A stretch of DNA of 42,365 nucleotides, from positions 1 to 42,365 of the forward strand of contig CANIFM010000004.1 in assembly GCA_947466955.1 (NCBI GenBank), written 5' to 3'. This document shows, piece after piece, positions 2,711-7,520 of the stretch. The notes beneath the pieces were generated by a model that ran no database searches, was not told the DNA's origin, and saw only the letters and a program-made list of their open reading frames with translations. This stretch comes from Bacteroidota bacterium. GTDB taxonomy: Bacteria; Bacteroidota; Bacteroidia; Flavobacteriales; Flavobacteriaceae. Numbering within the stretch: the stretch's first letter is position 1; the number at the start of each line of letters is the position of its first letter. A program made the translations under genes and the position numbers.

Positions 2711-3982
2711 ATGTTACAAATAGCATTTATTAGAGAAAATCAGGAAAAAGTAATCAAAGCATTGGCAAAGAGAAATATGGACGCCAAAGTTACAGTTGAT
2801 GAAGTTGTCCAATTAGATGAAAAACGAAGAGCTACGCAAGTAGAATTAGACAACATTTTATCCGAATCTAATAAATTATCCAAAGATATTGGCGATTTAA
2901 TGAAAGCTGGCGAAAAATCAAAAGCTGCTATATTAAAAGAAAAAACTGTAATTCTAAAAGAAAAAAGCAAAGATTTAGCTGAAAAAGCAGATGCTTTGGC
3001 ACACGAATTATTAGAAAAATTATATACTTTGCCGAATCTTCCTGCAGATAGTGTACCTGTTGGAAAAACCCCTGAAGAAAATGTAACCGTTTTTCAAGAA
3101 GGTGAAATTCCTGTTTTGCACGAAGGAGCTCAACCACATTGGGAATTGGTAAAAAAATACGACATCATAGATTTTGAATTAGGAAATAAAATAACAGGTG
3201 CTGGTTTTCCTGTATATAAAGGTAAAGGAGCAAAATTACAGCGGGCTTTAATCACTTATTTTTTAGATAAAAATACCGATGCTGGCTATAAAGAATACCA
3301 AGTTCCTCATCTTGTAAATGAAGCTTCGGCTTATGGAACGGGACAATTGCCAGACAAAGAAGGGCAAATGTATCACGATGCCACCGATAATTTATATTTA
3401 ATTCCTACGGCTGAAGTTCCTGTAACAAATTTGTTTCGCGATGTGATTTTGAACGAAAATGAATTGCCAGTTTTAGCAACTGCTTATACGCCTTGTTTCC
3501 GAAGAGAAGCAGGTTCTTATGGCGCTCACGTTCGTGGTTTGAACCGTTTGCACCAATTTGACAAAGTAGAAATCGTACGAATTGAGCATCCTGATAAATC
3601 TTATGAAGCTTTGGAAGGAATGGTAGAACACGTGAAAATGATTCTTCAAGAATTGAAATTACCTTACCGAATTTTGAAACTTTGTGGAGGTGATATGGGT
3701 TTTACCTCTGCTTTAACGTATGATTTTGAAGTGTTTTCAACTGCGCAAGATCGTTGGTTGGAAATTTCATCGGTTTCAAATTTTGAGACTTTTCAAGCCA
3801 ATCGTTTGAAATTACGTTTCAAAGATAAAGACGGAAAAAATCAATTGGCACATACTTTAAACGGAAGTTCATTGGCTTTGCCAAGAGTTTTGGCAGGAAT
3901 ATTAGAAAACTATCAAACGCCGGAAGGAATTGTAATTCCAGAGGTTTTGAGAAAATATACTGGTTTTGATTTGATTGACTAA
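2711..3982 (+). CDS. serS: Seryl-tRNA synthetase
   Basis: 423 residues, the usual length. The N-terminal ~110 residues form the long antiparallel coiled-coil arm (rich in K, E, A, L) that holds the tRNA-Ser variable loop. The class II catalytic core follows: TAEVPVTNLFRDVIL, motif 2 around CFRREAGSYGAHVRGLNRLHQF, and motif 3 around LNGSSLALPRVLAGILENYQ with the ATP-binding arginine. It charges tRNA-Ser (and tRNA-Sec where present) with serine in the cytoplasm. The start ATG gives the family N-terminus MLQIAFIRENQEKVIKAL. Essential single gene, no operon partner evident. Confidence 0.97.
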   Translation: MLQIAFIRENQEKVIKALAKRNMDAKVTVDEVVQLDEKRRATQVELDNILSESNKLSKDIGDLMKAGEKSKAAILKEKTVILKEKSKDLAEKADALAHELLEKLYTLPNLPADSVPVGKTPEENVTVFQEGEIPVLHEGAQPHWELVKKYDIIDFELGNKITGAGFPVYKGKGAKLQRALITYFLDKNTDAGYKEYQVPHLVNEASAYGTGQLPDKEGQMYHDATDNLYLIPTAEVPVTNLFRDVILNENELPVLATAYTPCFRREAGSYGAHVRGLNRLHQFDKVEIVRIEHPDKSYEALEGMVEHVKMILQELKLPYRILKLCGGDMGFTSALTYDFEVFSTAQDRWLEISSVSNFETFQANRLKLRFKDKDGKNQLAHTLNGSSLALPRVLAGILENYQTPEGIVIPEVLRKYTGFDLID

Positions 3983-3991
3983 AAATTTCAA

Positions 3992-4016
3992 CATATAAGG
4001 CATTTAAGGACATATA
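3992..4016 (+). repeat. Left 25-bp inverted repeat flanking the TPR lipoprotein gene
   Basis: Contains three iterations of a 9-mer: CATATAAGG, CATTTAAGG and, after one base, CATATAATT. Its reverse complement equals 4739-4763 with one mismatch in 25. It sits just after the serS stop. TTCAA directly precedes it. Confidence 0.8.
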
Positions 4017-4040
4017 ATTTTAGTAATAAAATAACAACTT

Positions 4041-4721
4041 ATGAAAATTAAAATCATTTTCTATTTATCACTAAATTTATTAATTGTTGGATGCGGAAAT
4101 TCACAAAAAAAGGATAGTGATGGTAATTATGAATTAAAACTAAATTCTCCGACCAAAAATGATGAAGCAGCAAAATATTATAATGATGGTTATGCGGAAT
4201 TTCATAAAGAGAATTATGAAGATGCAATCAAAAATTATAAAAAAGCCATAAAACTTGATTCTAGTTATACTGATGCAATTGATAATTGTGCATTGTCATA
4301 TCGTAGATTAAACAAATTAGACAGTGCTGAATATTATTACAAACTATCATTGAAAAAATTACCAACAAATGAACTTGCAATGAGTAATTTAGGTTTGGTT
4401 TATATGTTTAAAAATGACTTTAAAACTGCTAAATCAACTTTTAAAAAATTATTAAAAAATAATCCTAATTATGGAGATGGATTATACAGTTTGTCAGAAG
4501 TTTATTTGAGAGAAAATAAAAATGATTCCGCCATAATTTATAGTTTGAAAGCATACGAAGTTTGGAAAGATAATAATCCGGAATTTTCAGCGGATGCTTT
4601 ATATTATACAGGTCTTGCCTATCTTCATAAAGGAGATAAAAAGAAAGCAATGGATTATTTTGTTCGTGCAAATAAATTGGGTAAAAATATCCCTCCCGAA
4701 ATACAAAAACAACTAAAATAA
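4041..4721 (+). CDS. TPR-repeat lipoprotein
   Basis: 226 residues. The N-terminus MKIKIIFYLSLNLLIVGCGNS is a lipoprotein signal with the lipobox LIVGC, so Cys18 is the likely lipidation site and the protein is anchored to a membrane facing the periplasm or surface. From about residue 45 there are four to five tetratricopeptide repeats, for example AAKYYNDGYAEFHKENYEDAIKNY, spaced by 34 residues and carrying the usual small/aromatic pattern. TPR proteins bind partners; none is indicated here. The gene is boxed by a pair of 25-bp near-perfect inverted repeats and lies between serS and another TPR gene to which it is not closely similar. Function unknown. Confidence 0.85.
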   Translation: MKIKIIFYLSLNLLIVGCGNSQKKDSDGNYELKLNSPTKNDEAAKYYNDGYAEFHKENYEDAIKNYKKAIKLDSSYTDAIDNCALSYRRLNKLDSAEYYYKLSLKKLPTNELAMSNLGLVYMFKNDFKTAKSTFKKLLKNNPNYGDGLYSLSEVYLRENKNDSAIIYSLKAYEVWKDNNPEFSADALYYTGLAYLHKGDKKKAMDYFVRANKLGKNIPPEIQKQLK

Positions 4722-4738
4722 ATTAGTTTACCATTTCT

Positions 4739-4763
4739 TATATGACCTTAAATGCCTTATATG
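4739..4763 (-). repeat. Right 25-bp inverted repeat flanking the TPR lipoprotein gene
   Basis: Inverted copy of 3992-4016 (24 of 25 bases). Read on the minus strand it begins CATATAAGGCATTTAAGG. TTCAA recurs at 4765-4769, one base outside the repeat, as also found next to the left copy. The repeat contains an in-frame ATG (4742), which is why the downstream gene can seem to begin too early. Confidence 0.8.
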
Positions 4764-4771
4764 GTTCAAAA

Positions 4772-6550
4772 ATGAAAAAAATATTTCTACATATCGCATT
4801 ATTTTTCACTCTATTTGTTTTCTCACAAAACGAGCAATTGGCGCAGAATTATTTTGACAAAGGCGAATTTGAAAAAGCGCTAATTTCCTATCAAGAATTG
4901 TTGACTGCTCAACCTGGAAACGGCTATTATTTCCAAAAAACCATTGAATGCCAACAACAATTAAAACAATACGATGTTGCGGAAAAGGCAATTTTGAATC
5001 GTTTCGACAAATACAAACAAGCAGCACTTTTAGTAGAATTAGGTTCTAATTATCAATTGCAAAAAAACGAGGAAAAAGCCAAAAAATATTTCGAGCAAGC
5101 GTTAGATAAAATCAAAAAAAATCCAAGTGAGGTTTATGCGATTGCTGCCGTTTTTGAAAGAAAAGTATTAATAGATTATGCGTTGCAAGCCTATCAAATG
5201 GCACTTGATTTAGATAAAAATCTCAATTTTAATTTTCAAATGGCGTTGCTTTATGGTCAAAAAGGAGATTCGGATAAAATGATTGAAAAATTCCTGGAAG
5301 AATCGTTCAAAAATCCTCAAAACCTAATTGCAATTCAAAATCAGTTTTCAAGGTTTATGACTGAAAATGCCGATGTGAATTTTAATAATGCCTTGCGAAA
5401 AGCCTTATTACTTCGCACACAGCAAAACCAAGATGTGTTTTGGAATCAATATTTGAGTTGGTATTTTGTGCAACAAAAAGAATTCGGAAAAGCTTTTATT
5501 CAAGAAAAAGCAATTTATAAACGAAATCCTGAATCACTTTTTAATATTGTGAATTTGGCTCAAATTGCCATTGAAGAAGACGAAAAAGAAACGGCAAAAG
5601 AAATTTTGACTTTTGTTTTAGAGAATACTCAGGATATGGAATTGCAAATCCAGGCGCATTATTTTCTTACAGAAATGAAAATAAATAATCCGTTAGAAAA
5701 AGATTTGTCTTTAATCGAAACAGACTTAAATTCTTTGTTGAAACAATTTGGAATTACGCCTTATTCTTTAAAATTACAGATCTTGAAAGCGCATTTTGAT
5801 ACCTTTCAAATGAAAAATCCCGAGCAAGGAAAAGTCATTTTGAAAACCGCTTTAGATCTTCCTTTGAATGAATATCAAAAGGCAGATGTTAAAATGGAAT
5901 TGGCAGATATCTTTTTATTTGAAGAAAAATTCAACCAAGCCTCTTTGTATTATTCTCAAATTGAGGAAGATTTGAAGAATGACGTTGTTGGACACGAAGC
6001 AAGTTTGAAATCAGCAAAAACAAGTTATTTCAAGGCTGATTTCGTTTGGGCATTGAAACAATTCAAAGAGCTGAAATCGGTTTCATCGCAATTAATTGCC
6101 AATGATGCTTTGGAATATTTCCTTCTGATAAATGACAATACCGTTGCCGATTCTACGCAAACTGCTTTGAAACAATTTGCACGCGGAGATTATCTTTTGT
6201 ACCAAAATAAACCTCAAGAAGCATTACTTCAATTTCAAGACATTCTGAAAAATTTCAAAGGACAAGAAATTGAAAGTGTAACTATCTATAGATTGGGAAA
6301 AACATACGAAAAATTAGGAGATTATTCTTCGGCTTTAAGCCAATACCAAACCATTATAGACAAACATTCTGATGGAATTTATGTGGACGAAGCATTGTAT
6401 TTTTCGGCTGAAATTTATAATAAACAGCTGAAAGATACAGAAAAGGCAAAGCCACTTTATGAAAAATTAGTGTTCCATCACGAAGACAGTATTTATTTTG
6501 TAGATGCAAGGAGAAAATTTAGGGAATTGCGAGGAGACCTTGCCCCCTAA
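4772..6550 (+). CDS. Secreted tetratricopeptide-repeat protein
   Basis: 592 residues from ATG 4772. An in-frame ATG at 4742 lies inside the inverted repeat and would add MTLNALYGSK ahead of an otherwise normal signal peptide (MKKIFLHIALFFTLFVFSQ), so 4772 is preferred. The mature protein is all-helical TPR: an N-terminal set (AQNYFDKGEFEKALISYQELL), a long middle part, and a C-terminal set (YRLGKTYEKLGDYSSALSQYQTIIDKH, then YVDEALYFSAEIYNK) like the Bacteroidota YfgC/BamD-like TPR proteins. Predicted periplasmic scaffold; partner unknown. The final residues LAP and the stop codon lie within an interspersed CCCCCTAACCCC repeat, so the natural C-terminus may have been replaced. Confidence 0.85.
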   Translation: MKKIFLHIALFFTLFVFSQNEQLAQNYFDKGEFEKALISYQELLTAQPGNGYYFQKTIECQQQLKQYDVAEKAILNRFDKYKQAALLVELGSNYQLQKNEEKAKKYFEQALDKIKKNPSEVYAIAAVFERKVLIDYALQAYQMALDLDKNLNFNFQMALLYGQKGDSDKMIEKFLEESFKNPQNLIAIQNQFSRFMTENADVNFNNALRKALLLRTQQNQDVFWNQYLSWYFVQQKEFGKAFIQEKAIYKRNPESLFNIVNLAQIAIEEDEKETAKEILTFVLENTQDMELQIQAHYFLTEMKINNPLEKDLSLIETDLNSLLKQFGITPYSLKLQILKAHFDTFQMKNPEQGKVILKTALDLPLNEYQKADVKMELADIFLFEEKFNQASLYYSQIEEDLKNDVVGHEASLKSAKTSYFKADFVWALKQFKELKSVSSQLIANDALEYFLLINDNTVADSTQTALKQFARGDYLLYQNKPQEALLQFQDILKNFKGQEIESVTIYRLGKTYEKLGDYSSALSQYQTIIDKHSDGIYVDEALYFSAEIYNKQLKDTEKAKPLYEKLVFHHEDSIYFVDARRKFRELRGDLAP

Positions 6551-6931: not shown

Positions 6932-6958
6932 CTTGATGTCGCAATTTGCGACATCAAG
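6932..6958. repeat. Palindrome 1 upstream of ORF6N gene
   Basis: 27 bases with perfect 13-base arms (CTTGATGTCGCAA on the left) around a central T. The inner core GTCGCAA-T-TTGCGAC is identical to that of the palindrome inside the ORF6N gene. Confidence 0.85.
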
Positions 6959-6974
6959 ATAGAATAAAAATACT

Positions 6975-7003
6975 ATTGGAGGTCACAAATTGTGACCTCC
7001 AAT
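6975..7003. repeat. Palindrome 2 upstream of ORF6N gene
   Basis: 29 bases with perfect 14-base arms (ATTGGAGGTCACAA on the left) around a central A. Its outer arms TTGGAGGTC match the palindrome inside the ORF6N gene; only one base per arm of the core differs (A for G, T for C). It ends 28 bases before the ORF6N start codon, a position where an operator could act. Confidence 0.85.
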
Positions 7004-7031: not shown

Positions 7032-7520
7032 ATGAGCACCGAAATTTCGTTAATTCCAGATGATGTTATAATAAACAAAATTTACTTTATCAGAAATCAA
7101 AAAGTAATGTTAGATCGAGATTTGGCGGTACTTTACGGTGTTGAAACCAAAAGATTAAAAGAGCAAGTAAAAAGAAATTTATCAAGATTTCCTGAAGATT
7201 TTATGTTCGAATTGACCAAAGAAGAATTTGAAAATTGGAGGTCGCAATTTGCGACCTCCAATTCAGATAAGATGGGATTAAGGTACGCACCTATGGTTTT
7301 CACTGAACACGGAGTATTGATGCTTTCGAGTATATTGAACAGTGAAAAAGCGATTCAAACAAATATTCAAATTATGAGAATATTTACAAAAATCAGACAA
7401 ATGCTTGCTGAAACTACCGAATTACGTTTGGACGTGGAAACAATCAAAAAGAAAATTGAAAATCAAGGGAAAAATATTGAACTCGTTTTTCAATATCTTG
7501 ATGAATTAATCGAAAAATAG
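7032..7520 (+). CDS. ORF6N domain-containing DNA-binding protein
   Basis: 162 residues. Residues 8-95 form an ORF6N domain: IINKIYFIRNQKVMLDRDLA, then VETKRLKEQVKRNLSRFPEDFMFELTKEE, and MVFTEHGVLMLSSILNS. ORF6N is a DNA-binding-associated domain named from a phage protein and found in phage-derived and chromosomal genes of many bacteria. The C-terminal ~50 residues (MLAETTELRLDVETIKKKIENQGKNIELVF) are a predicted coiled coil, suggesting oligomerisation. The conserved stretch N68-N77 (NWRSQFATSN) is encoded by a perfect 31-bp DNA palindrome that recurs in related form twice upstream. Not surrounded by phage genes. Target and role unknown. Confidence 0.88.
   Translation: MSTEISLIPDDVIINKIYFIRNQKVMLDRDLAVLYGVETKRLKEQVKRNLSRFPEDFMFELTKEEFENWRSQFATSNSDKMGLRYAPMVFTEHGVLMLSSILNSEKAIQTNIQIMRIFTKIRQMLAETTELRLDVETIKKKIENQGKNIELVFQYLDELIEK
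7233..7263. repeat. Palindrome 3 within the ORF6N coding region
   Basis: 31 bases with perfect 15-base arms (AATTGGAGGTCGCAA on the left) around a central T. It encodes residues 68-78 of the ORF6N protein. It shares the TTGGAGGTC arm with palindrome 2 and the GTCGCAA core with palindrome 1. Confidence 0.9.

Follow-up and report, generated by a model that had tools for sequence, protein, structure and literature searches.

In a Flavobacterium genome, the junction between serS and a gene for a 592-aa TPR protein is occupied by a lipoprotein gene that is enclosed by long inverted repeats, which raises the question of how this gene came to reside there and whether the repeats had any part in its arrival. 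The window, a stretch of 42,365 nucleotides, is a contig of this 2.66-Mb, 88%-complete genome.

A laterally acquired gene between paired arms

The inverted repeat, which a preliminary description had reported with one mismatch, was found to extend over 26 nt, 25 of which match (96% complementary), with 720 nt between the two arms (Table 1). The left arm reads CATATAAGGCATTTAAGGACATATAA, and the three words per arm that had been described were recovered as words of the CATATAAGG/CATTTAAGG type starting at positions 3992, 4001 and 4011, the last one being imperfect, with mirror words at 4755, 4746 and 4736. The gene for a 226-aa TPR lipoprotein is, as described before, the sole convincing gene between the arms; a longer frame of the 592-aa TPR gene opens at 4742, within the right arm, and differs from the conserved start. 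Neither arm of the window has a partner except the opposite arm. Single arms, with folding energies of 0 and -0.8 kcal/mol, do not fold, whereas the joined arms form a stem of -21.9 kcal/mol (z = -9.6), and the earlier proposal of a separate hairpin at each end was therefore abandoned. Since the arms pair with each other, the lipoprotein gene occupies the loop of a single large palindrome, a hairpin or cruciform. Random sequence seldom contains an inverted repeat that scores as high, yet it can do so (2 of 40 Markov windows reach the level of the window); a chance origin is excluded because the 26-mer recurs, with no more than two mismatches, in the same genome and in relatives. A search of eight loci against Rfam gave no match at the gathering score.

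Table 1. Features at the serS-TPR junction of the window
Feature	Position	Strand	Remarks
serS	2711..3982	+	Left neighbour of the junction, conserved; Pfam tRNA-synt_2b and Seryl_tRNA_N
Left arm	3992..4017	+	CATATAAGG CATTTAAGG A CATATAA; 26-mer also at other sites of this genome and in relatives
Passenger gene, 226-aa TPR lipoprotein	4041..4721	+	Foreign to the lineage; orthologues in 5 of 400 genomes
Right arm	4738..4763	-	Left arm inverted, 25/26; pairs with the left arm
592-aa TPR gene	4772..6550	+	Right neighbour, conserved

Palindromes also occur further downstream in the window, where three near-perfect ones (6932-6958, 6975-7003 and 7233-7263) accompany a 162-aa ORF (7032-7520). Two of them are located upstream of the ORF and the third, AATTGGAGGTCGCAATTTGCGACCTCCAATT, resides within the frame and is a near-repeat of the upstream TTGGAGGTCACAAATTGTGACCTCCAA; the protein encoded by this ORF has no NCBIfam match.

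The lipoprotein gene and its arms were acquired laterally. A cassette-free form of the junction, which it had been suggested to look for, is present in the four nearest relatives, which have neither gene nor arms and possess a plain serS-TPR junction of about 83 bp with a terminator-like stem; in the tree, the 592-aa TPR protein of the window is the outgroup to these four relatives with a support of 100/99. A match to the TPR gene was identified in 139 of 150 Flavobacterium genomes, and among the 30 best loci the gap between serS and the TPR gene measures about 40-190 bp wherever both genes are seen, the window being the exception. Close orthologues of the lipoprotein are restricted to 5 of the 400 Flavobacterium genomes; presence of the gene at this locus in all relatives, which had been named as evidence against a mobile unit, was not observed. 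Apart from the window, the five comprise the Flavobacterium MAG G192, in which the gene likewise lies at the serS-TPR junction, there with the right arm only, and three genomes with integron-like cassettes. The lipoproteins of G192 and the window are 90% identical, the adjacent TPR proteins just 67%. In the window, the 14 nt that follow the start codon region of the TPR gene resemble the donor clade; they may, however, be ancestral, and a recombination breakpoint at the TPR start was for this reason not retained.

That two unrelated hairpins flank a native gene by chance is hardly credible for the window. Such an arrangement does exist in another genome (G007), in which trpS, at first considered a boxed gene, has on either side a repeat that pairs with a separate partner, so that two hairpins are formed; the arms of the window, however, pair only with each other, the gene is foreign, and the empty junctions refute the explanation. 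The three genomes with cassettes (G143, G283 and G184), two of which match F. pectinovorum and Flavobacterium sp. CF136 by contig, carry the lipoprotein gene among attC-like elements. In G283, at least 26 such elements were observed within 39 kb (C1, 3935000-3974000), all in the same orientation; most intervals measure 470-950 bp and contain small single ORFs, and the lipoprotein gene is among the cassettes; similar arrays were seen at three further loci. These orthologues, one of them from F. pectinovorum, would fit a cassette that an integron integrase had placed at a secondary site. Nonetheless, we consider this origin very improbable, as a search by sequence pattern and by eye revealed no attC-like sequence on either side of the gene in the window or in G192, and the arms are unrelated in sequence to the attC-like element.

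Dispersal of the arms and contents of the junction

The arms belong to a dispersed repeat family. The core CATATAAGNCATWTAAG is present in 211 of 400 Flavobacterium genomes with up to 46 copies per genome, while the reversed sequence, which served as control, yielded two hits in total in the same 400 genomes. With up to two mismatches allowed, further sites of the 26-mer in the window genome are a solo copy, a back-to-back hairpin and a tandem array of about 88 bp; relatives possess a perfect hairpin of it as well as arrays of about 130 bp. Throughout the genus, copies of the repeat are solitary, form hairpins or arrays, or lie round genes. Three intergenic loci have tandem arrays built from arms or from pairs of arms, with units of about 90-130 bp. 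The occurrence of single repeats without genes, which the preliminary description had named as speaking against its cassette, is thus a fact, and since the repeats also occur in this manner, the arms are not dedicated cassette ends.

Inverted ends that enclose a single gene, together with TTCAA near both of them (3987-3991 on the left and, one base off the right arm, 4765-4769), would be in line with a classical non-autonomous insertion element whose arms are terminal inverted repeats and whose transposase is encoded elsewhere. This explanation is improbable. The two TTCAA copies had been taken for a possible target duplication; however, across 60 similar units a direct repeat of at least 4 nt was present in 17% as compared to 8% of mis-paired controls, which is not a significant difference. 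The arms, moreover, occur alone and in tandem arrays. No transposase gene with these ends was found: 30 Y1/IS200-type loci, the class covered by this search as distinct from DDE transposases, had no copies of the repeat within about 1.5 kb and hence provide no link to HUH/RAYT enzymes.

The serS-TPR junction of other genomes holds further genes within the same arms, a search for which had been suggested in the earlier description. An Imm-NTF2-2 gene is located there in G227 and G175 and, with a decayed left arm, in G316, and a 64-aa membrane-protein-like gene in G161, G187 and G341; in G084, G252 and G261 the arms hold just a nested small palindrome, and several genomes possess a gene-free hairpin of the same words. 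Thus, the loop contents vary and the flanking genes remain constant. The serS junction is the only place at which passengers within CATATAAG arms, the word type of the window, were seen. In other clades, different palindrome families or different genes occupy the junction.

Several observations accompany this survey. At five loci, the small palindrome nested in CATATAAG arms at the serS junction is of the GTCATTTCGACGAAGGAGAAATC type. The junction is a general hot spot of gene insertion: at nine loci, other clades have unrelated genes without CATATAAG arms, which include conserved genes of about 670 bp and about 960 bp; the latter were rejected as boxed passengers for want of such arms. In other Flavobacterium genomes, Imm-NTF2-2 genes are flanked by inverted GTTTCAGGTTTCAAGTT-type words at two loci and less clearly at a third, which may be another instance of a passenger, here in arms of a different family.

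The variation at the junction may also be explained without any dedicated enzyme. In this case the arms would be the halves of an ordinary intergenic hairpin 3' of serS, a terminator or mRNA 3'-end structure, which came from another clade; genes would enter its loop by chance and be exchanged by homologous recombination via the conserved neighbours, and the GxxExxY genes described below would be frequent lodgers with no role in spread. The gene-free hairpins of the same words at this very junction, the other palindrome families at the same place in other clades, the terminator-like stem of relatives and the exchange of loop contents between constant flanks are all consistent with such a plain hairpin, and the 14 donor-like nucleotides at the TPR start, although possibly ancestral, would fit a recombination tract. 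We regard this explanation as a substantial possibility, while leaning against it on account of the frequency with which GxxExxY genes, unlike control ORFs, are boxed by inverted arms.

GxxExxY genes between word-repeat arms

To our knowledge, GxxExxY proteins are widespread and without known function, and we likewise know of no established cause for the intergenic word repeats (CACAGAG, CGCAAAG, CATATAAG) that recur in bacterial genomes. The family (TIGR04256/PF13366, PDDEXK_3) is nuclease-like as judged from its structural model (pLDDT 95.8), in which a PD-(D/E)XK-type core is predicted. The invariant residues are G28, G30, E33, Y36, D73, E83 and K85, the last three of which (numbered as in the CATATAAG-clade protein of G012) would be catalytic; the nearest solved folds are those of Cas4 SSO0001 and of an alkaline exonuclease, with weak E-values of 0.01-0.03, and a sequence search of the PDB with the family profile returned nothing significant.

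At the junction between sufE and DUF59, roughly one half of the genomes examined have a GxxExxY gene enclosed by CATATAAG arms, and in several genomes gene and arms are present or absent together. Where the gene is lacking, the junction may measure as little as 8-9 bp and be free of arms, or it contains another palindrome or, in the window genome, a single right-hand arm. This arm (C11, about 499-526) begins at the stop codon of sufE and appears to be what is left of a lost unit. The left arm of the window and the sufE-locus arms of G187 and G355 agree at 25 of 26 positions and have their word type and relative orientation in common, and G192, the donor-type genome, possesses a GxxExxY gene with CATATAAG arms. 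The window genome has two GxxExxY genes with perfect arms of 29 and 35 nt that belong to two other word types; no GxxExxY gene of the CATATAAG type was found in this 88%-complete assembly.

Counting an inverted repeat with a score of at least 15 between the 200-bp flanks as a box, we found 52 of 75 Flavobacterium GxxExxY genes to be boxed by inverted word repeats as compared to 1 of 66 control ORFs from the same loci, and this single control adjoins a GxxExxY unit. In other genera of the order, similarly, 8 of 25 GxxExxY genes and none of 24 controls are boxed. Of 84 GxxExxY genes, 83 are surrounded by word repeats of one family or another. These 84 genes represent about 18 gene neighbourhoods, 17 of which have words, and each main word type is found in five to six of them. 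Protein clade and arm type correspond well (11 changes versus 47.6 in shuffles), and the match survives thinning of the sufE locus to one row, with the remaining loci still being orthologous groups. However, as the genes share so few neighbourhoods and all 17 CATATAAG-armed genes sit at the sufE locus, the match largely reflects shared loci, and it was dropped as independent evidence. Independent support for the link comes from the 17 of 18 neighbourhoods and from other genera and phyla. Of seven GxxExxY genes carried on plasmids in other groups, those of Bacteroides, Bernardetia and Gemmatirosa are clearly boxed, the last one by perfect arms of 32 nt; the box in Treponema measures 11 nt, the Sphingomonas gene has words on one side only, and in Fusobacteria and Persicobacter the words, identified by eye, are in direct orientation. 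The arms of the three clear boxes consist of CACAGAG/CGCAGAG words.

Genomes with GxxExxY at sufE have a median of 12 repeat copies and those without it 6.5 (one-sided p = 0.02, in a biased sample and with no phylogenetic correction); some genomes with many copies, such as G172 with 46, lack GxxExxY at sufE. No report of the association between GxxExxY and repeats was found in the literature searched, outside of which most subscription papers lie, and this is not proof of novelty.

As the same kind of arms brackets GxxExxY genes in Flavobacterium and in several other phyla, GxxExxY is a testable candidate for the enzyme behind the repeats. That GxxExxY genes are boxed more often than control ORFs, and that this recurs in other phyla, favours such a role over the plain hairpin, though no more than moderately. 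While the search of Y1/IS200-type loci gave no transposase with these termini, GxxExxY at sufE-DUF59 is a candidate gene with the same arms.

A candidate mechanism and its relation to known systems

The most likely mechanism, as we infer it, is that the GxxExxY protein recognises arms of its word type when they are folded and then nicks, cuts or trims them; repair after cutting would copy the element, spread its arms or exchange the loop. Gene-free arms would in this manner come to lie between genes, whether solo, as hairpins or in arrays, and some loops would carry an accessory gene. The window copy may have arrived as a DNA segment from a G192-type relative that recombination swapped in between the two conserved genes, serS and the TPR gene. 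Copying events were not observed. On this view, the window unit would be non-autonomous and carry a passenger, as one of a family of palindromic word-repeat elements whose typical gene-bearing form contains GxxExxY, and we rate this reading as somewhat below an even chance. What the preliminary description had called a non-autonomous cassette or a gene mobilised in trans is retained as an acquired unit whose dispersed arms surround other genes as well and for which GxxExxY is a candidate gene in trans; a transposon with target duplications is not supported, and movement in trans is conceivable through the proposed enzyme. More broadly, and as a tentative suggestion that is rather more likely to fail than to hold, GxxExxY proteins might be the cognate enzymes of word-repeat palindromes across phyla (CATATAAG, CGCAAAG, CACAGATT, CACAGAG and similar), each type spreading its own arms between genes in the way that has been proposed for RAYTs and their REPs; such arms might also carry passengers in trans, of which the window unit would be one.

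The comparison with known systems underlines these points. The window unit shares with integron gene cassettes the lipoprotein gene itself, which is a cassette in relatives, and differs by its arms, which are another sequence, and by the lack of an attC-like site in the window. MITEs and passenger-carrying non-autonomous insertion elements likewise have inverted ends, no transposase inside and dispersed copies; in contrast to these, no significant target duplication was found, nor a parent transposase among the Y1/IS200-type loci, and the arms are also single and tandem. The arms are of the kind most often located round GxxExxY genes, including the CATATAAG arms at sufE-DUF59, with the TPR lipoprotein in place of GxxExxY, which the unit does not contain. 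The closest parallel is the REPtron, a RAYT (TnpA-REP) gene with its REP sequences (PMC2817692, PMC8266576). In both, the gene for a small nucleic-acid enzyme, here a putative one, lies between two inverted repeats at a fixed locus, and repeats that enclose no gene are scattered over intergenic sites. This likeness applies to GxxExxY genes as a class, as the counts of boxed genes indicate, whereas the window unit has an unrelated passenger instead. Further differences concern the enzyme, which is a predicted PD-(D/E)XK protein here and an HUH/Y1 tyrosine transposase in REPtrons, and the repeats, as the arms are runs of words of about 10 nt that pair across the gene and REPtron repeats are each a hairpin. 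Linking word repeats with GxxExxY gives each of them a testable role in a REPtron-like system on an unrelated nuclease fold, and if the arms also carry passengers, as the window suggests, they would provide a route for the transfer of small genes without a recognisable transposase or integrase. Thus, the window unit is best read as the passenger version of a GxxExxY/word-repeat system that would work like a REPtron without being one.
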